From positions 1 to 22,456 of IMG/VR virus record IMGVR_UViG_3300025138_000407: a DNA stretch of 22,456 nt; one strand, given 5' to 3'. The position numbers and the translations under genes are program-made. Positions within the stretch are counted from its first letter, which is position 1. The number at the start of each line of letters is the position of its first letter. This stretch comes from a virus. Below the pieces are notes generated by a model. That model did not search any database and was not told the DNA's origin. It saw nothing but the letters and a program-made list of their open reading frames with translations. Positions 10,096-18,888 of this stretch are shown one piece after another.

Positions 10096-10295
10096 TCCTC
10101 TACCGTAACTCTTATACCACTGCCTCCGAATAGTTTTATGAGTTCATCAGCAGATGCCTCTACGTCCAGCAGAGTTTTATCATCCCCTGTTTCGGCAGCT
10201 AATCTTAGGGTCGTGCCAACAAAGTCCATGAGTGCTTCGACTTGCATTGGATGCATTTGTCTTAGTCCTAATGTCTTCATGTCTGGATCTATCAT
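10092..10295 (-). CDS. 67-residue protein at the end of the replication operon
   Basis: Starting at ATG 10295 (MIDPDMKTLGLRQMHP), it is 67 residues and its ATGA junction overlaps the polymerase stop, with GGGGAGA a proper distance upstream; an upstream in-frame TTG at 10310 is less likely. The sequence is one or two amphipathic helices (MQVEALMDFVGTTLRLAAET) and an acidic C-terminus ending RVTVED. No motif recognised. Its position after the polymerase suggests an accessory replication role, but this is only inference from context. Its TAG and the TAG of the large virion gene share CTAG at 10092-10095. Confidence 0.6.
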   Translation of the reverse strand: MIDPDMKTLGLRQMHPMQVEALMDFVGTTLRLAAETGDDKTLLDVEASADELIKLFGGSGIRVTVED

Positions 10296-12193
10296 TCTAT
10301 GTCTCCCCAATCTGGTTGAATGTCTACGTCAATTTTAGAGGGCACCTTTAGAGGTACGCCTGTTTCCATTAGTTCCTTTATTTTTCCGACTTGGGCTTCA
10401 TCATCTATGTTAAAGCATAACTCATCATGCACCGTAAGCATAGGAGTAAGTCCCTCGTTGTAACAATCAAGCATTGCCTTCTTAGTTTGGTCGGCTGCTG
10501 ATCCTTGGATCAATCTGTTCAGTGCCTTGTATGTGAAGGCTCGTTTGATCTGTTTGCCGTACTCCTTCTGTGCGTCGTCGTGAGGTAGGGGTTTACCTAC
10601 TCCGAAAGTAAGAGGCTCCCAAAGGTGAAACCTGCACTTACGGCCTAGTAGAGTGCGTATCTGCCCGTTGTCTGACGCCTGTTTGGTAGCTAGATCTGCA
10701 AGACCTTTAACAAACGGCACCTTTTCTCTGTGTTTTCTAATCAAACTCTTTGCATCATCCGCAGGTATGCCAAGCTGATCGGCTAACTTTGCTACGCCCA
10801 TGCCATACATAATGCCAAGGTTCACGGTCTTGGCTTGCTTACGAGTGATCGAAGCTAGGTCTGCAACCATCTGATGTAGATCCACGTCCCCTGTATTGAA
10901 CTCATCTACGATGTTGTCGACCACAGAGTGCCTCAACCCTACAGGTACGGACGCTGCAAAGTGCACCAGTAACCTCGGCTCTTGACTCGAGTAATCAAAC
11001 GATCCCCACTGACAACCGTCCTCTGGTATAAACAAACCACGGATCATCTTCTTGATGTCGGGATCTCGCGCAGGAATTTGTTGTAGGTTTGGGTTGGATG
11101 ACGAAAATCTCCCAGTCACAGTGCCTCCCTCATCTCTTCGTGTGGAGTGTAGCTCTGTATGTATCCGTCCGTTGTGCTCGTGGCGCAGTATGCTATCGAT
11201 GAATGTAGAGTCTGCCTTATCGAACTCACGTAGTTTAACCAAAGCCTGACAGACTTTCGATGGGTGATCGATCAAAAACGATTTGGTAAACGATGGCGCA
11301 CCCTTTTCTGTGGTAAAGTATTCCATATCCAGTTTATCAAACATCTTTCGGATAGAAGCAGAGGCCCAGATGTCCACCTCCATCCCTGCTTCCTTTTCGA
11401 TAAACGAACGTAGCTCCTTGGTCTTGGCGCGAATTAACTTCTTGTTCTTGTCTGCTTTGTCGAGATCCACACGCACACCGTTGGTTCTCATGTCTAACAT
11501 GCAGCGTATAAGATCTGTCTCTACATTCCAGATGTGCCAGAGTTCTTGCTCCTCGAGTTGTACCTTCAGCGCATCCCATAGTTTAAGCGTAGCAACTGCG
11601 TCTTGCTCGGCATAGGCTCCAACATACTTGGGTGGTAGCTTGTACATCTCTGCCTTTGGATCTACGCCCCACTCCTTGGCTGCTGCCTGTAGAAGCCTTT
11701 CATTCTTTCGAAGCTGCACGTAATCTCGAGCCATTGCATCTAGCCCAAAGGACCAACGGTTCTCGTTTACCAATGCGCCAGTAATCATAGTGTCGATGAT
11801 CCTGCCCTGTATCTCTATGCCCTCGGCCCTCATCCAACCTGCATCGTAGGTTGCGTTGTGCATGATCACGTTCATGTCAGGCACAGCCATCTGTTTCTTC
11901 AGCCACTTGAGTGTGAACTTCGGATCTAAGTTGTGTGAGTTCTCATGGCGGATAGGGAAGTACCCTTTGTATTCCCCTGCTGCCACAGCTATGCCAATGA
12001 TGTGCCCGTCCTTACGTGCCCATCCTGGCCCCAATGTTTTTATGTTAGGATCGTAGGTCTCAAGATCTACAGCCACATCTTTGTAGCCTGTCAGGTCTGG
12101 ATACTCTGGCGGTATGTTCCAGTCCTGATCTATTAGATCTAGTTCCCCTTTGATCTGATGGTGTAATGCACTGCCAAATAAATTACTTTGCAT
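10292..12193 (-). CDS. polA: Family A DNA polymerase with 3'-5' exonuclease
   Basis: 633 residues. The proofreading DEDDy exonuclease is intact: Exo I VDLET (D43, E45), Exo II HNATYD (D117), Exo III YAEQD (Y194, D198). The polymerase has motif A FDYSSQEPR (D400, E405), motif B RKQAKTVNLGIMYG (R451, K455, Y463) and motif C VHDE (H589, D590, E591). There is no 5'-3' exonuclease domain, as in T7-type replicative enzymes. The residue matching E. coli Pol I Phe762 is Leu459. Motif A departs from DYSQIELR at two neutral positions (Q and P for I and L), a variant I have seen in phage enzymes. It should copy the phage genome using the primase products. Start ATG overlaps the DUF6378 gene by 11 bases with a GAAACGAAGA leader. 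Confidence 0.95.
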   Translation of the reverse strand: MQSNLFGSALHHQIKGELDLIDQDWNIPPEYPDLTGYKDVAVDLETYDPNIKTLGPGWARKDGHIIGIAVAAGEYKGYFPIRHENSHNLDPKFTLKWLKKQMAVPDMNVIMHNATYDAGWMRAEGIEIQGRIIDTMITGALVNENRWSFGLDAMARDYVQLRKNERLLQAAAKEWGVDPKAEMYKLPPKYVGAYAEQDAVATLKLWDALKVQLEEQELWHIWNVETDLIRCMLDMRTNGVRVDLDKADKNKKLIRAKTKELRSFIEKEAGMEVDIWASASIRKMFDKLDMEYFTTEKGAPSFTKSFLIDHPSKVCQALVKLREFDKADSTFIDSILRHEHNGRIHTELHSTRRDEGGTVTGRFSSSNPNLQQIPARDPDIKKMIRGLFIPEDGCQWGSFDYSSQEPRLLVHFAASVPVGLRHSVVDNIVDEFNTGDVDLHQMVADLASITRKQAKTVNLGIMYGMGVAKLADQLGIPADDAKSLIRKHREKVPFVKGLADLATKQASDNGQIRTLLGRKCRFHLWEPLTFGVGKPLPHDDAQKEYGKQIKRAFTYKALNRLIQGSAADQTKKAMLDCYNEGLTPMLTVHDELCFNIDDEAQVGKIKELMETGVPLKVPSKIDVDIQPDWGDIE

Positions 12194-12539: not shown

Positions 12540-12687
12540 CTTCTTGTTCCCTTGGATAAAAAACTAAAACAAAACTACCGCACTCCGGGCAGCTTAAATT
12601 TGTTTCTATACTGTATTCCGGGTCTTCCTCCTCTATATCATGATCTCCACCCCAAATTAGTTTTGTCCTGCAATGCCAACATTTCAT
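12529..12687 (-). CDS. 52-residue double-CxxC zinc-ribbon protein
   Basis: A short gene filling what otherwise looks like a 144-base gap. It begins MKCWHCRTKLIWGGDHDIEE and ends in a strand-rich FVLVFYPREQEDET. Cysteines C3-x2-C6 and C33-x2-C36 form a zinc ribbon; the WGGDHD segment and acidic run between the knuckles are familiar from a widespread small phage protein. Its ATG overlaps the helicase TGA (ATGA), with AGGT upstream, and its end overlaps the DUF6378 start by 11 bases. Both couplings and the motif make it convincing. Function unknown; possibly a nucleic-acid or protein adaptor in the replisome (inference). Confidence 0.85.
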   Translation of the reverse strand: MKCWHCRTKLIWGGDHDIEEEDPEYSIETNLSCPECGSFVLVFYPREQEDET

Positions 12688-14213
12688 ATCGTGTACCTGT
12701 AATTGTTTGTTGTTTGTAATATGTACAGAGAGTTACGTGCTCGAGTTACCCCAACATAAAACGCCCTGTGCTCATCGTCTTGAAACCTGCTTTCACAGGC
12801 CGCTTTGGTAGACCCTAAGTATACCAAACAGTTGTCGTCTTCGCCTCCCTTCATAGCATGGAAGGTGGACAACTTTATGCGAGGGGCAGATAGTAGATCG
12901 TCACCCCTTCGCATCATTGCTGCAATGTAATCCTGCTCTACCTTGCTTACACGCAACACCTCGTAGCCGCTCTGCTCTGCGCCTACCAGTAAACCGTATT
13001 CATTTTGTAGCTGTGTCATATCCAATTCTGCATCTGGAGCTAAAGCGTCTAACCTCTGTGTGAATCCACGTTTGACCACAGCGTTTTGTCCCTGCTTGGG
13101 TACAGTTGTGTATAGATCCTTGATCCTTTGCAGTCCAACCTTCTTGTCCTGACACAGATCTTCCCAAGTAAATAGGTTTGCTACCAGTTTGTCCGAGATA
13201 CTTGGTCTACCCTTGATCGAAAACTTAAAACCCATGTTCTTGATTCTCTTTGCCATGTCATGGACGTATCCATTTGTCCTTGCCATGAGTGTCCACGATC
13301 CCTCGTACAATGGCGTCTCATCAAGGTGGTTGATCCACTCAACCAAACCCTCTTCCTCCCTTGGTTTAAATAACTTGGGGTGTCGATCCTCAATCCTCCC
13401 TGCAATAACCCTTGCTAGTTTATGCACGGACCTTGGTATTCTGTACGATTGATCCAGTACATCTATGTCCTTGGAGCATTCCTTAAATAGCTCCACGTCC
13501 ACGCCTGTCCATCTGTGGATAGCTTGGTCGTCATCCCCTGCTATAAATACTTTCTCCGCCTCGCTTGCTATCTTGACTGCCATCTCCCACTGCAACGGTG
13601 TGAAATCTTGGGCCTCGTCTATAATCAGGTATTCAAGTTTTGGAACTTCCCCCACCTGTATGTACTTGTCGATCATGTCCACATAGTCGTACTTGTTTAG
13701 GGCTTGCTTATACTGCTCAATCTGCTCGTGTAATTGCAACAACTTAGGGAAGTGCAGCGTCCGGTCAAACGTGTCGTTAAACTCTTTGTCCAAGGTAACC
13801 ATGCGTAAACGTGATCGGCCTATCATCTGTAGATAATCTGACCCTGACCCACCTAAAGAAGGCATAGGCATTCCATCCTCTAAAGAGTTAGAAAGCTTAC
13901 CTTCAAAGGTTAATCCTACCGTTTCTCCTATGTTGTCGTAATCTTCTTTCTTCATGATGTCTTGCGGCTGCAAGCCTAACGCTCGGAACCCAAACGAATG
14001 AGATGTTCTCATGTATGGAAAGTCTTTTGGTTCCAGTTCGAACTCTTCACAGGCTCGAGTCACCATCTCTTCGATGGCCTTCCGTGTAAAAGAGATCACA
14101 CCCATGCGTGAGGGGTGCGTACCCTCTGCCAGAGCCTTGCGGATCTCCTCAATTAGACGATAGGTTTTTCCACATCCTGGCGGTCCAAGAATTAATTTAG
14201 CTTTCGGTATCAT
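12684..14213 (-). CDS. UvrD/Rep-like SF1 DNA helicase
   Basis: 509 residues with the superfamily 1A motif set: Walker A GPPGCGKT (10-17), Ia FTRKAIEEM (42-50), motif II IDEAQD (198-203), motif III GDDDQAIHRW (226-235), motif IV QSYR (255-258), motif V FHAMKGGEDD (451-460) and motif VI VGVTRAR (487-493). It is shorter than bacterial UvrD (about 720 residues), so the accessory 1B/2B subdomains are reduced. SF1A enzymes translocate 3'-5' on single-stranded DNA and unwind duplexes using ATP. Sitting between the primase and polymerase, it is the most likely replication or recombination helicase. The ATG follows GGGGGAAAGAAT and overlaps the AlpA-like gene by 17 bases. Confidence 0.92.
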   Translation of the reverse strand: MIPKAKLILGPPGCGKTYRLIEEIRKALAEGTHPSRMGVISFTRKAIEEMVTRACEEFELEPKDFPYMRTSHSFGFRALGLQPQDIMKKEDYDNIGETVGLTFEGKLSNSLEDGMPMPSLGGSGSDYLQMIGRSRLRMVTLDKEFNDTFDRTLHFPKLLQLHEQIEQYKQALNKYDYVDMIDKYIQVGEVPKLEYLIIDEAQDFTPLQWEMAVKIASEAEKVFIAGDDDQAIHRWTGVDVELFKECSKDIDVLDQSYRIPRSVHKLARVIAGRIEDRHPKLFKPREEEGLVEWINHLDETPLYEGSWTLMARTNGYVHDMAKRIKNMGFKFSIKGRPSISDKLVANLFTWEDLCQDKKVGLQRIKDLYTTVPKQGQNAVVKRGFTQRLDALAPDAELDMTQLQNEYGLLVGAEQSGYEVLRVSKVEQDYIAAMMRRGDDLLSAPRIKLSTFHAMKGGEDDNCLVYLGSTKAACESRFQDDEHRAFYVGVTRARNSLYILQTTNNYRYTI

Positions 14214-14421
14214 ATTCTTTCCCCCTTGGTCTTGTGTTTACCCAGTCCTCGATCTCGGTCAGAACCCAACGGCTCGAGGATCTCCTGTTTGTCTCGTCAC
14301 CCAGAACAATGGGCTTCGGAAAGTCTCCGGTCTGCGACAGTTTATATATGTAGGATTTCGATACGCCTAACATCTCGGCTACCTCACCCACCCGCAGCAG
14401 TCGATTAGAATGGGATTTCAT
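14197..14421 (-). CDS. AlpA/excisionase-type helix-turn-helix protein
   Basis: 74 residues. LLRVGEVAEMLGVSKSYIY (8-26) is a MerR-like winged helix-turn-helix start typical of the AlpA and 'excisionase family' folds. KLSQTGDFPKPIVLG then gives the wing, and SRWVLTEIEDWVNTRP is the matching C-terminal helix (the usual W-x-x-x-E-I-x-x-W pattern). Known relatives regulate transcription or act as directionality factors for integrases. No integrase is in this window, so a regulator or a DNA-bending partner of the replication genes fits better. AAAGGAG lies 7 bases from the ATG; the gene starts inside the primase gene's final codons. Confidence 0.85.
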   Translation of the reverse strand: MKSHSNRLLRVGEVAEMLGVSKSYIYKLSQTGDFPKPIVLGDETNRRSSSRWVLTEIEDWVNTRPRGKEYDTES

Positions 14422-15940
14422 TGCTATACTCCTTTACAGGTAATTCTATTTCTTCTTCTTCAAACGCAGGGACAAACCAACAACGTACATTAGTTCTTGT
14501 TTCACCCTTCGGTCCTCGCTTGGTTATGTTTTGTTTTGTGGCATCACCACCAAGATCTCGTATCATCTGGGTTATCTGTCCACGGCTCGTAATAATAAAC
14601 CTTCTGTTATGCAGAAACTCGAGCAGTCCCTCTAGTTTGAACTTGGTAACTCCACCGTCAGTCCATGGTTTGTTCATAAGTATTTCTTCTGGAGCCATGG
14701 CCCGAATGTAGCTCGTGCAATACCCTTCTAACAGATCCTTAAACTGGCCTGTTATTGTAAGCTCTTCTGGTACATCTATGTAAGTAGCCTGACTCATTAA
14801 GTTGTTAACCATCTGCTGCCACTTCTGTGGCTTGGTGGTTGGTGGCATGAACATGCACTGCTCCATACACGCACGTTGCCATAGCGTCTGGTTCTGTAAC
14901 TGCTCTGTTGAAAGCTGTATCCGTGTGCCGTTCACATCCATGAAATACAAACGTGGTTCGGACAGCATGATCGTTAGCCCACCAACCTGTGGTGCATCCG
15001 GTGCATCCTGACCTATACCAAAATTAGCCAGTACACACAAAGACGGATCGCAGTACGACTTGAACGGCTCTTCCTTACAAGTGTAACCCCAGTCTTTCTT
15101 CTCATGCTGTTTGATTACGGTCTGCACCTCTGAGGATGGAAGGGGCGGTGAAAATAACGTTCGGTTGTATTCCTCCAGAGACGCTTGCCAACTGTCAGGG
15201 AACTTCTTCTTGCAGTACACACCCATAAAAAACAAAAGCTTGTTCCTTGGTTCTGATTGTGGTCCGTCTGCAAAGATATGCCGTAAACATGGCGGTCCGT
15301 CTTCGAAATGCTTCCTTACAGTTTGAGTAGCACGTATAGACTCCAAGTCAGATAGGCTCACACTCTTGTTGTCTATCTCTGTCAGGAACTCATCAAGTTC
15401 CATGGCCTCTGTATTTTTGTTGTAACAAAATCTCTGCGGCATCTCCGCATCGAAGTAAGGCATGTTGATAAAGTTACCAACGTCTCCACGTTCAGCAATT
15501 ATTTTATCCTGCTTGGGAAAGATCTCTACGCCACTGTGCCCCAAGAGTATCGCCATCTCTGTTAGATACTCTCTAGCTACAGCAGCAGGTTCCCAGTCTT
15601 TGAGAAACAAATACAAGTGAGCACCGCCCGACTTGGATCTACAATGCAACAGAGGCAGATCCAATTTGTTTATTCGTTCCTGTAATTCTTTATGGTTGAG
15701 GTCATACACATCTACATCGATGGCCCCAAACTTACACATGTTGTCTTCGTTGATTGGTATCGCACCAATCCCTTGCTTGCCGTCGATGTGCCCCTGCACA
15801 ACCTCCTCGGTCATCGGCTCTCGAACAATCTTACTTTGGCTCTCTGCCTTGCCGTTGCGTCCAATTCTACCGACCGTAGTTGTCCCATGTGCGGACAATG
15901 CGCCAGTGTACGCGGCAAGAAGCTTCTTTGCTTGTGACAT
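14405..15940 (-). CDS. Archaeo-eukaryotic-type primase (TOTE-like AEP)
   Basis: 511 residues. The N-terminal 165 residues match an AEP core of the TOTE-type: GAIPINEDNMCKFGAIDVDVYD with metal-binding acidic D75 and D77, SKSGGAHLY with H108, and EIFPKQD (139-145). A four-cysteine set (C218 in GPPCLRH, C288, C297, C302 in CDPSLC) could hold a metal or iron-sulfur cluster, as in some AEP primase C-terminal regions (inference). The second half is helical and ends in acidic KEYSNEIPF. It should lay primers for the polymerase. No helicase domain is fused. The start has AGGAG 6 bases upstream. Transcripts from the SSB-like gene must read through an intrinsic terminator to reach it unless it has its own promoter. 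Confidence 0.85.
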   Translation of the reverse strand: MSQAKKLLAAYTGALSAHGTTTVGRIGRNGKAESQSKIVREPMTEEVVQGHIDGKQGIGAIPINEDNMCKFGAIDVDVYDLNHKELQERINKLDLPLLHCRSKSGGAHLYLFLKDWEPAAVAREYLTEMAILLGHSGVEIFPKQDKIIAERGDVGNFINMPYFDAEMPQRFCYNKNTEAMELDEFLTEIDNKSVSLSDLESIRATQTVRKHFEDGPPCLRHIFADGPQSEPRNKLLFFMGVYCKKKFPDSWQASLEEYNRTLFSPPLPSSEVQTVIKQHEKKDWGYTCKEEPFKSYCDPSLCVLANFGIGQDAPDAPQVGGLTIMLSEPRLYFMDVNGTRIQLSTEQLQNQTLWQRACMEQCMFMPPTTKPQKWQQMVNNLMSQATYIDVPEELTITGQFKDLLEGYCTSYIRAMAPEEILMNKPWTDGGVTKFKLEGLLEFLHNRRFIITSRGQITQMIRDLGGDATKQNITKRGPKGETRTNVRCWFVPAFEEEEIELPVKEYSNEIPF

Positions 15941-15956
15941 TTACTGCTCCTGTTGA

Positions 15957-15993
15957 AATGAAAAAGGGGCGGCAAGGGAAAATAGCCGCCCCC
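15957..15993 (-). terminator. Intrinsic terminator between SSB-like gene and primase
   Basis: Read on the - strand: an 8-bp perfect all-G/C stem, GGGGCGGC paired with GCCGCCCC (15985-15992 and 15966-15973), an 11-base loop, then five T at 15965-15961 followed by a further T-rich CATTTC. It lies 8 bases after the stop of the SSB-like gene and before the primase Shine-Dalgarno. It is the clearest Rho-independent terminator in the window and would let the two upstream genes be transcribed more than the rest. Confidence 0.88.
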
Positions 15994-16000
15994 AGGCTAC

Positions 16001-16786
16001 CTAGAAGGGGATTTCTTCTCCGTCTTTCGAGGGAGAGTCCTCAACTTCTGGGGCAGCTTTCACTTCACCTGCGGCTACACTGTCACGGAATGACTTAGCC
16101 TCAAGTAGGAGATCTCGGTTCTCTAACAAACCGATCTTTTCGATAGCGTAGTTGAACCACGTACCTTGGTCATTGGATTCTTCGACAGTGCCGAACTTCC
16201 ACTGATTGCCAAACAACGGTGGCGTAATCAACTGACCTGTCTTCGGATGCTTAATCTTTTGCATTGCGATCTGGGTCTTCCAACGACGACTGACCTTTAA
16301 CTGGCTAGACTTCATGTCGATAACAACAGGTTGAAAAGAACCCTCGTCATCCACAACCAAGCAGTAATGTTGGTCAGACTTCACCAGTTCGTTGCCGCTA
16401 GGTAAGATCTCTTTTGCACCCTGACGTTCAGTCCTTTGCAAGACTGGATCTGTTGGTGCGATCTCACCACGGAAGCCACCACCTTGTTCACGCGGTGTGA
16501 ACTCTAAGTACTTGGTGGTTTGGAAACAAGGTATGACAGTCACACCTTCTTCCCCTGTCCAATACTGTTTGGTTACAGTGTTGAACATGTCCCCCTGTTC
16601 CGAGCCTTCGATGTACTCAGCTTCACGCTTCTTTAACTGAGGTGACATGGCTTGCAGGATACGGACAAATGGAATCTGCATCTCCGAACTGTCGTATGCT
16701 GCACCCTCCCCTGCAAATTCTAAGATGTCATCCATTACATCGGTGCTTAACTCTGCACTTTTTTTCTTTGTTACTGCGGTCGCCAT
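16001..16786 (-). CDS. SSB-like ssDNA-binding protein, phage type
   Basis: 261 residues. The N-terminal helix is followed by a conserved-looking body (IPFVRILQAMSPQLKKRE, then FNTVTKQYWTGEEGVTVIPC, EFTPREQGGGF, VSRRWKTQ, and a final PLFGNQWKFGT-like strand). I recall this layout from small phage proteins filed as ssDNA-binding or hypothetical. The C-terminal 16 residues are disordered and acidic and end EEIPF, like the DDDIPF tip of bacterial SSB that recruits repair and replication partners. Immediate neighbours are a coiled-coil protein, the primase and the replisome. AGGAGG is just upstream of the ATG (TAATG overlap with the previous stop). The fold is not certain without a search; the replication role is strongly supported by context. 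Confidence 0.6.
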   Translation of the reverse strand: MATAVTKKKSAELSTDVMDDILEFAGEGAAYDSSEMQIPFVRILQAMSPQLKKREAEYIEGSEQGDMFNTVTKQYWTGEEGVTVIPCFQTTKYLEFTPREQGGGFRGEIAPTDPVLQRTERQGAKEILPSGNELVKSDQHYCLVVDDEGSFQPVVIDMKSSQLKVSRRWKTQIAMQKIKHPKTGQLITPPLFGNQWKFGTVEESNDQGTWFNYAIEKIGLLENRDLLLEAKSFRDSVAAGEVKAAPEVEDSPSKDGEEIPF

Positions 16787-17346
16787 TATGATTTCCTCCT
16801 GATCTGCGCTGCATTTGAAATGAATGCCCCGAACATATCGAGGTCAATCGGTTTACCATCCGTTACTCTCTCCCTTACAAAAGCTTTGAGTGTGGATGGA
16901 TGTACATGGGTCTTGGTCATTGGATCGAAACCACGGTCTTGTAGTATTCCAACAACATCCCCTGCCAGATTGTCCTGACCTTTACCAAAGGAACAGGTGA
17001 CATCGTTCTTTATGATGTCGTCCAATCCGTTATCACGCAGCCATGCAAGGGCGTCTTCCTTGCGGTTTTGCGGTATTGATGCACTGATAATCATCTTACG
17101 CTCAACGGTAAGACCGTCTACGTCGAGACGCTCTACCCCCATCTCATCCATGAGTGCAGGGATGTTTTCTACGGAGAGCTTATGCTTCTCCTGCTTCAGT
17201 GCTTTCATGTGGTTCTCTGCATCCTCGATCTGTTGCTCGACGTTGCGGAGATTGCGAACCAGTTGACTTAATTGTTTTCCAGTTCCAGTGTCGACTGACG
17301 ACAGTGCTGCCGATTCGTCAAACATGTCTTCAAATATATCGTCCAT
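16786..17346 (-). CDS. Coiled-coil early replication-operon protein
   Basis: 186 residues when started at ATG 17346 (MDDIFEDMFDES), which has GAGGAG seven bases upstream; the longer TTG-initiated form (17406) is not needed. Residues about 24-62 are a predicted coiled coil (LVRNLRNVEQQIEDAENHMK). The C-terminal part contains DALAWLRDNGLDDIIKNDV, FGKGQD and THVHPSTLKAFVRE, a pattern I recall in conserved phage proteins of unknown function, often near SSB or recombination genes. It is the first gene of the leftward operon and ends TAATG into the SSB-like gene. Possibly a structural or annealing partner of the SSB-like protein (inference). Confidence 0.7.
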   Translation of the reverse strand: MDDIFEDMFDESAALSSVDTGTGKQLSQLVRNLRNVEQQIEDAENHMKALKQEKHKLSVENIPALMDEMGVERLDVDGLTVERKMIISASIPQNRKEDALAWLRDNGLDDIIKNDVTCSFGKGQDNLAGDVVGILQDRGFDPMTKTHVHPSTLKAFVRERVTDGKPIDLDMFGAFISNAAQIRRKS

Positions 17347-17418
17347 AAGTTTCTCCTCTTCAGGGTTGATATAACGGAAGCAGTATGCTATCCGTATTGA
17401 AGACAATAATGGAGATAT
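17347..17418. promoter_or_regulatory. Divergent control region for replication operon and SNF2 helicase
   Basis: 72 bases separate the leftward coiled-coil gene from the rightward SNF2 gene; this is the only divergent gap in the window. On the + strand TTGATA (17366-17371), 17 bases, then TATCCG (17389-17394) is a weak sigma70-like pair. On the - strand TATATC can be seen without a clear -35. A dyad lies at 17375-17394. Both transcription units are expected to start here, but the promoters may be non-canonical. Confidence 0.45.
17375..17394. repeat. Imperfect dyad in the divergent region (operator candidate)
   Basis: CGGAAGCA (17375-17382), three bases GTA, then TGCT-A-TCCG (17386-17394): an 8-bp inverted repeat with one bulged A. 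It overlaps the presumed promoter spacer of the rightward gene, a usual place for a repressor site. The binding protein is unknown; the AlpA-, RHH- or winged-helix proteins of this window are candidates. Confidence 0.4.
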
Positions 17419-18888
17419 GTGGTGGTTGTCAACTACAATTACAAATTAAAACCATTTGACCACCAGATCACGGCACTCGAACGTGGGTGGGACAGGCCAG
17501 AGTTTGGTTACTTTATGGAAATGGGTACGGGTAAATCAAAAGTTCTACTCGATAACATCGGTATGCTGTACCTATTAGGAGAAATAAACTTTGCTTTGGT
17601 CATCGCACCAAAGGGAGTGTATCGAAACTGGGTAGCAAAAGAAATACCAGAGCATATGTCCGATGACATACCTCATCGAGTAATCCGGTGGGTATCCTCG
17701 CCAAACAAAACCCAACAGGCAGAGATGAGATCTGTTGGTGAGAAGTTCGAGGGCCTCACAATCTTTGTTATGAATGTTGAAGCATTCTCATCGGTCAAAG
17801 GTAAGACAGGTGGAGAATGGATGGCTCGTACGTTTGGTCGAAATGGATTGATTGCGGTTGATGAATCCACCACCATCAAGAATCCAAAAGCCAAACGCAC
17901 TAAATCACTAATGAGAATTGCAGCGGCATTCAAGTATAAACGGCTACTAACAGGATCTCCCATTACAAAAAGTCCTATGGATATTTATTCGCAGTGTGAG
18001 TTCCTTCGCCCAGGTCTTCTCGGTTACGATTCCTTTTATTCATTTCAATACAGATACGCAGTCGTGCAACGCAAAACCATGGGTTCCCATGCCTTCCAAC
18101 AGATTGTGGGATACAAGAACCTCGATGAATTAACCGAGAGGATCGATGCATTCTCCTATCGCGTACTGAAACAAGACTGTCTGGACCTACCAGAAAAGAT
18201 TTACACAGTGCGTTATGTCGAGATGACCAAGCAACAACGAGAGATGTACAACTCAATCAAACAGTATGCCCTCGTTATGTTGGATAGTGGCGAACTGTCC
18301 ACGGCCCCTGCTGTTATTACCCAGATGCTGCGCTTGCAACAAATCATGTCCGGTCATCTCAAAACCGATGACGGCGAAACAATATACTTTGAATCAAAAC
18401 GTATGGATGCATTGAAAGAACTGATCGAAGAGCACGACGGCAAGGCTATCATCTGGTCACGCTTTCGATACGACATCCAACAGATTACTAAAATGCTAAA
18501 CGAAACCTTTGGGCAAGGATGTGCCGCTTCCTTCTACGGAGATACCCCAGACGATGAACGGCAAAGAATAGTCGAGGATTTTCAAGACAAAAACTCAAAA
18601 CTAAAGTTCTTCGTAGGCAACCCCGCCACAGCGGGATATGGATTGACCTTGACCGAAGCAGATCTCGTGGTTTATTATGCTAATGATTTTAATCTTGAAA
18701 CTCGAGCACAATCAGAGGATCGAGCACACCGAATTGGACAAAAGAATAACGTGACCTACGTTGATCTTATTACAGACGGAACCATCGATGAAAAGATTGT
18801 CACCTCACTGCAATCCAAGATCGATATCAGTGCAAAAGTATTAGGTGAAGAGGCTAGAGAATGGCTGACTTTAACCCCAAAGAAATAA
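17419..18888 (+). CDS. SNF2-type DEAD/H-like helicase
   Basis: 489 residues starting at GTG 17419 (a second GTG at 17422 has better distance from GGAG 17411-17414). Motifs: HQ (15-16), Walker A MGTGKS (35-40), IAPKGVYRNW (63-72), motif II VDEST (149-152 region), III LTGSP (178-182), IV IIWSRFR, V NPATAGYGLT, VI AQSEDRAHRIGQ (430-441). This is a complete SWI2/SNF2 ATPase with no additional domains. SNF2 enzymes translocate on double-stranded DNA and remodel or displace bound proteins. In phages they may clear proteins from DNA or help replication restart. It is divergent from the replication operon, shares its control region, and is followed by a small HTH-like gene overlapping by 28 bases. 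Confidence 0.93.
   Translation: MVVVNYNYKLKPFDHQITALERGWDRPEFGYFMEMGTGKSKVLLDNIGMLYLLGEINFALVIAPKGVYRNWVAKEIPEHMSDDIPHRVIRWVSSPNKTQQAEMRSVGEKFEGLTIFVMNVEAFSSVKGKTGGEWMARTFGRNGLIAVDESTTIKNPKAKRTKSLMRIAAAFKYKRLLTGSPITKSPMDIYSQCEFLRPGLLGYDSFYSFQYRYAVVQRKTMGSHAFQQIVGYKNLDELTERIDAFSYRVLKQDCLDLPEKIYTVRYVEMTKQQREMYNSIKQYALVMLDSGELSTAPAVITQMLRLQQIMSGHLKTDDGETIYFESKRMDALKELIEEHDGKAIIWSRFRYDIQQITKMLNETFGQGCAASFYGDTPDDERQRIVEDFQDKNSKLKFFVGNPATAGYGLTLTEADLVVYYANDFNLETRAQSEDRAHRIGQKNNVTYVDLITDGTIDEKIVTSLQSKIDISAKVLGEEAREWLTLTPKK

Follow-up and report, generated by a model that had tools for sequence, protein, structure and literature searches.

Gene content of the locus

The whole stretch of DNA analysed here, referred to as the window, is a viral record of IMG/VR type and comprises 22456 bases. 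Its minus strand encodes, in this order, a DUF7307 protein, a Pam3_Gp34 protein, an AEP primase, an AlpA-like protein, a UvrD-like helicase, small genes and a family A DNA polymerase, and a divergent SNF2 helicase gene is located upstream of these replication genes (Table 1). The Pam3_Gp34 gene lies upstream of the primase gene, and the two proteins are unrelated. Counts per lineage refer to a set of 71 representatives, chosen so that their primases are less than 75% identical to each other.

Table 1. Location of the genes and tip codons considered, with the evidence for each
Feature	Position	Strand	Evidence and remarks
AEP (TOTE-type) primase, 511 aa, C-terminal tail ...EEEEIELPVKEYSNEIPF	14405..15940	-	PF22548 3.9e-16; phrog_21866 4.5e-91; motifs; AF2; PDB fold
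Primase tip codons E-I-P-F (GAA ATC CCA TTC), stop 14405-14407	14408..14419	-	Overlap with start of next gene; sequence
Pam3_Gp34-family protein ("SSB-like"), 261 aa, tail ...EDSPSKDGEEIPF	16001..16786	-	PF23977 3e-66; phrog_2402
Pam3_Gp34 tip codons E-I-P-F (GAA ATC CCC TTC), stop 16001-16003	16004..16015	-	Sequence; free of gene overlap; tip kept in relatives
DUF7307 (Pam3 gp33-like), candidate hub, start codon uncertain	16786..17406	-	PF23984 1.4e-29; in 65/71 representative loci
SNF2-family helicase, candidate hub	17419..18888	+	PF00176/PF00271; in 60/71 representative loci
UvrD-like SF1 helicase, candidate hub	12684..14213	-	PF00580 2.6e-26; phrog_1967; in 69/71 representative loci
Family A DNA polymerase with 3'-5' exonuclease, candidate hub (T7 gp5 as precedent)	10292..12193	-	PF00476 9.1e-60; PF01612
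AlpA-like HTH protein, start overlaps primase tip; outside the proposed system	14197..14421	-	PF05930 1.4e-11

The family A polymerase is present in 45 of the 71 loci, many of the others being short. The UvrD helicase gene is often found immediately after the primase gene in the loci of relatives. In the clade of the window the AlpA-like HTH gene separates the two; it is missing from distant loci, where the UvrD gene adjoins that of the primase. The DUF7307 gene adjoins Pam3_Gp34 in PB1-, YuA-, Wifcevirus-, phiVC8-, ZP6-, pelagiphage- and window-type phages (the window; L360-L365, L358, L359), an adjacency that survives different polymerases and primases, and an SNF2-type helicase is encoded nearby in most such phages. 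The C-terminus of DUF7307 is often a basic stretch (ITRK, VTKK).

Identity of the primase and of its neighbour

The assignment of the primase to the AEP family, made in a preliminary description of this DNA, is solid. PF22548 was matched with 59.8 bits against a cut-off of 27, the best match in a fold search of the PDB was the CAPP Prim-Pol 7nqe (2.6e-10), and the residues D75, D77, S104, G106 and H108 (S104xGxH108) of the catalytic DxD and SxH-type motifs are invariant among 60 aligned sequences. In NCBIfam a CAPP match was obtained below the cut-off only, and a helicase domain was absent from the Pfam matches. The AF2 model has a mean pLDDT of 91.5, with a low-confidence segment devoid of structure after residue 491. 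A genome scan using the primase of phage HTVC027P found no bacterial relative. The window primase thus shares its fold and motifs with the CAPP and AEP-TOTE primases (PF22548; the family of PDB 7nqe), but differs from them in being located in a phage replication operon and in carrying a putative C-terminal docking tail. No account of such tails on AEP primases was found in the literature, a search whose partial coverage makes this weak evidence.

The neighbouring protein had been described as SSB-like, a label that is weakly supported. It belongs to the Pam3_Gp34 family, with a match to PF23977 over residues 13-243 at 224 bits against a curated cut-off of 27, whereas the bacterial SSB family PF00436 was matched neither by this protein nor elsewhere in the window. 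No matches were obtained against NCBIfam, or when its profile was searched against the sequences of the PDB. In the fold search of the PDB the highest-ranking matches included RPA, MCM and SSB entries, but with E-values of at least 0.015 and low TM scores, and a BFVD entry named as a phage SSB was matched at 3e-3; an OB-type fold is thereby weakly suggested for the model. The mean pLDDT of this AF2 model is 89.8, and a structureless tail of lower confidence begins at about residue 240. Homology to T7 gp2.5 was rejected, as hhalign of 84 relatives against gp2.5 gave a probability of 0.3%. We infer that Pam3_Gp34 handles single-stranded DNA.

A shared and conserved C-terminal tip

Both proteins of the window end in the same four residues, KDGEEIPF in the neighbour and KEYSNEIPF in the primase. 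These endings were verified in the translated DNA, where the stop codon follows LPVKEYSNEIPF in the primase and SPSKDGEEIPF in the neighbour. No third protein with this tip was found among the 22 genes of the window, in which no other plausible gene ends in PF, and the gene lists of HTVC027P and DSL-LC04 contained no convincing case.

A [DE]xPF ending is present in 146 of 251 distinct primases and in 128 of 233 distinct neighbours. Among 8059 other closed reading frames of at least 80 aa in the fetched loci, PF ends 11, [DE]xPF six and IPF a single one, a rarity that excludes a chance match of the two tips. The group carrying matched tips consists of many phages, mostly marine. The preliminary description had named missing conservation of the last residues as a ground for refuting its proposal; these residues are conserved among homologues of both proteins, and [DE]xPF is kept in both among primases down to about 42% identity. 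The last residue is hydrophobic in 67 of the 71 primases and in 70 of the 71 neighbours. PF is found in both proteins in 34 lineages, and not in the clades ending in -IV, -IL, -NY or -EF. When the representatives of these 34 xPF/xPF lineages are compared, F at position -1 and P at -2 are both 100% conserved and an acidic residue occupies position -4 in 91% of primases and 85% of neighbours, whereas no consensus exists at positions -7 to -14 of the neighbour; the residues preceding the tip form a fast-changing linker that is predicted to be disordered. The tip had also been described as acidic. This holds for the clade of the window, but not for the -SNY and -DIL clades, where the primase tail contains Lys or Arg (VERKESNY, MKSKKDIL).

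Related endings were also observed elsewhere. In the PurZ phages phiVC8 (L362), ZP6 (L363) and K298 (L365), Pam3_Gp34 ends in FPDEM, DEEFA and IPAEM, respectively, and a separate small protein, annotated as SSB in phiVC8 and K298, carries DDDIPF either terminally or, as in phiVC8, internally with about 14 residues after it. A 113-aa open frame in another locus (L331:16274-16613) ends in DTDQDIPF, the Pam3_Gp34 protein and primase of that locus ending in AADM and ESEI, so that this phage, too, has tips of two kinds. In one Pam3_Gp34 gene (L057:3138-3947) the frame shifts near the end and DNEIPF is encoded in another frame; this probably results from faulty sequencing or assembly.

Overlap with the next gene

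In the window the primase gene runs into the AlpA-like gene, whose ATG and SD-like AGGAG are contained in the final primase codons, and about two thirds of the distinct primases overlap the next gene (165 overlap, 83 do not). The tip of the primase could therefore be viewed as a side effect of the start signals (ribosome site, start codon) of the following gene, but this can hardly be maintained. The same tip on the neighbour is overlapped by no gene, and the primase tip is retained in loci where the next gene starts past the primase stop codon (L239, L245). The residues IPF are encoded by 13 different DNA spellings in the primases, which implies conservation at the protein level. Furthermore, one clade (L107/L126) retains DIPF with ATACCCTTC, although the product read from the overlapping gene is altered from MTSHSN to MTYPSN. 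Gene conversion was also considered as a source of the likeness between the tails and is unlikely, since codon usage differs between the tips.

Matched switching of the two tips

Several clades have switched to tips in -IV, -IL, -NY, -NF or -EF, and such a switch usually involves both proteins. Deeper clades combine EDIL with KSIL, SNY with SNY, SNF with SNF (ESNF/ESNF) and PPFV with IPFA. HTVC027P has ENIV and QDIV, phages resembling it pair -NIV or -EIV with -DIV, and the two tips of the Providencia phage Kokobel2 are HSEF and KAEF. Primase and neighbour agree in their last two residues in 47 of the 71 lineages, compared to a mean of 19.7 and a maximum of 29 in shuffled pairs. Outside the xPF/xPF set they do so in 13 of 37 lineages (shuffle mean 2.0, maximum 7). 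Within the xPF pairs the residue at position -3 is the same in 25 of 34 (I/I 19, V/V 4, A/A 2), and none of 10,000 shuffles reached so high a count.

Because shuffling ignores kinship, a tree-based null was also run, using one quick tree built from both proteins with the tails removed and a simple state model in which terminal residues were simulated as independent. The class of the terminal residue agrees in 59 of the 71 lineages. The mutual information was 0.66, compared to a mean of 0.135 in the simulations; 2 of 1000 runs of independent evolution reached the observed value, and when the primase tips were held fixed an agreement of 59/71 was reached in none of 1000 simulations. Independent switches are few, and a matched-pairs test rests on 3-5 pairs only and has no power.

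Under another reading the tips have separate partners and are selected for different reasons, their likeness being due to the common ancestry of the genomes and to acidic-hydrophobic ends being preferred in general. Mismatched clades such as KDIL/AAHY and KEAF/ATPY speak in its favour, as does Nanhaivirus, where the primase alone has lost its tip. This reading is very improbable in the light of the tree-based null of independent evolution and of exact matches following a switch, such as ESNF/ESNF (L288) beside KDIF/SAHF (L299), and EAPF/EAPF beside EPPF/HSAF. Further mismatched tips are EEIF/DSIM and RSEF/NNDM, and in HTVC023P, as in Nanhaivirus, the primase tip is absent and the neighbour keeps xPF.

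In Nanhaivirus and its relatives (L165-L167) the primases end in ENGQD and DGEA, and Pam3_Gp34 keeps EVPF or EIPF. The primase of phage 023Pt_psg01 (L160) ends in KTPYQIENF and its Pam3_Gp34 in DSTPY, the matching TPY being located five residues inside the primase end.

Proposed docking on a phage protein or on host partners

That unrelated proteins carry the same tip speaks for a partner in common, as had been proposed, and the fact that both tips change together between lineages suggests that a single socket receives them, with a replication protein of the phage as its probable site. Conservation of the tips, a fast-changing linker in the neighbour, modelled tails without structure, constraint at the protein level and matched switching were observed here. 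We consider it probable that both C-termini are docking peptides that enter the same pocket of one replisome protein encoded by the phage. In such a mechanism a short linear motif on a flexible tail would insert its last hydrophobic residue and the carboxylate of that residue into the pocket, Pam3_Gp34 and the primase would share one hub or alternate on it, and the pocket would drift along with both tips between lineages. What we infer is the use of one pocket by both tails, its location on a phage protein and the recruitment of the primase through binding; through a shared hub, priming would then be coupled to single-stranded DNA that the phage has covered.

The preliminary description had offered two partners, a phage pocket and a hub of host proteins, of which the former is favoured. 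According to the latter, the tails copy the tip of the host SSB and dock to PriA, RecO, RecG, chi and others, either recruiting them to the phage DNA or diverting them from the SSB of the host. The window tips are indeed close to the SSB tip DDDIPF, small proteins ending in DFDDDIPF are found in other phages (K298, ZP6), and DIPF ends 73 of 80 fetched SSB relatives, a check that covers relatives from Enterobacterales and Vibrio only. Nevertheless, docking to host partners appears unlikely. Large clades carry -IV, -IL, -NY or -EF on both proteins, and such switches away from IPF argue against it. Either the P to S change of SSB-113 or loss of the last F weakens the binding of E. coli SSB to its partners (PMC10164576), and tips in -SNY, -DIV and -SEF should therefore fit the host pockets poorly. 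Providencia SSBs end in DDDIPF, whereas Kokobel2, which is a Providencia phage, has left I-P-F in both of its proteins. In ZP6 and K298, phages of Z-genome type that are related through Pam3_Gp34, DDDIPF resides on a separate protein and Pam3_Gp34 has another ending, so that the two signals seem to be distinct.

The tail of T7 gp2.5 is thought to compete with single-stranded DNA for its own protein. In a further reading analogous to this, both tails would bind the nucleic acid groove of Pam3_Gp34 itself, and the primase tail would open or load Pam3_Gp34. This is consistent with the interaction of the E. coli SSB-Ct with its own OB domain (PMC10164576), and with a Pam3_Gp34 ending that stays hydrophobic or acidic in phages lacking this primase (AEEF, KPVF, DEEFA). 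We regard it as decidedly unlikely, as core sites of Pam3_Gp34 follow the tip type no better than those of other candidates.

For a separate phage hub, the analogy with T7 offers a first guess, in which the family A polymerase would be the foremost candidate, followed by the UvrD-like helicase, DUF7307 and the SNF2 helicase. A search for residues that follow the tip type gave a signal over several candidates, the strongest being in the primase, and this looks like a residual clade effect; it singled out none of the candidates.

Comparison with known systems

The nearest known system in working principle would be that of T7, where gp2.5 and gp4 end in EEADEDGDF and WSNDTDF (GDF/TDF). The gp2.5 tail uses the same surface of gp5 as the gp4 tail does. 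The acidic tail of gp4 binds basic patches of the family A polymerase gp5 (PMC12593628; PMC12230644). In both cases a single-stranded DNA protein and a primase of one phage would share the ending of a flexible acidic tail, EIPF/EIPF in the window, where the role of the neighbour on single-stranded DNA is a putative one. The proteins are, however, non-homologous (AEP against the gp4 primase-helicase, and the neighbour against gp2.5). Furthermore, the tips studied here vary by lineage (PF, IV, IL, NY, EF), and some of the tails are not acidic.

The bacterial SSB-Ct (DDDIPF) has in common with the clade of the window a disordered linker, acidic residues and a terminal I-P-F. In contrast to the bacterial system, neither protein matches PF00436, the primase is also tipped, and many related lineages drop I-P-F.

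A third comparison concerns PrimPol, in which a short motif binds RPA, the single-stranded DNA-binding protein. Eukaryotic PrimPol, an AEP primase-polymerase, is recruited via RPA (PMC5457501). The likeness consists in an AEP primase tied to a protein that binds single-stranded DNA, a role that the neighbour in the window would presumably fill. Here, unlike in PrimPol/RPA, the primase and the protein next to it both end in one tip, pointing to a site that they share or to a third protein that binds them.

Implications

A more specific proposal, to which we give slightly less than even credence, is that of a lineage-specific plug code. The AEP primase would have acquired the plug of the protein handling single-stranded DNA and kept in step with it, one phage pocket would read both plugs, and the code (IPF, IV, IL, NY, EF) would drift together with the pocket, keeping the replisome of the phage insulated from the SSB hub of its host.

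An I-P-F tip resembling that of SSB on a phage protein need not imply docking to host SSB partners. The matched tip variants constitute a natural series for mapping the putative shared pocket, and function leads are provided for Pam3_Gp34 and DUF7307, both large families of unknown role. If true, the docking of both tails on one phage protein would show how an AEP primase is coupled to the single-strand machinery in phages without a helicase-primase of the T7 type.
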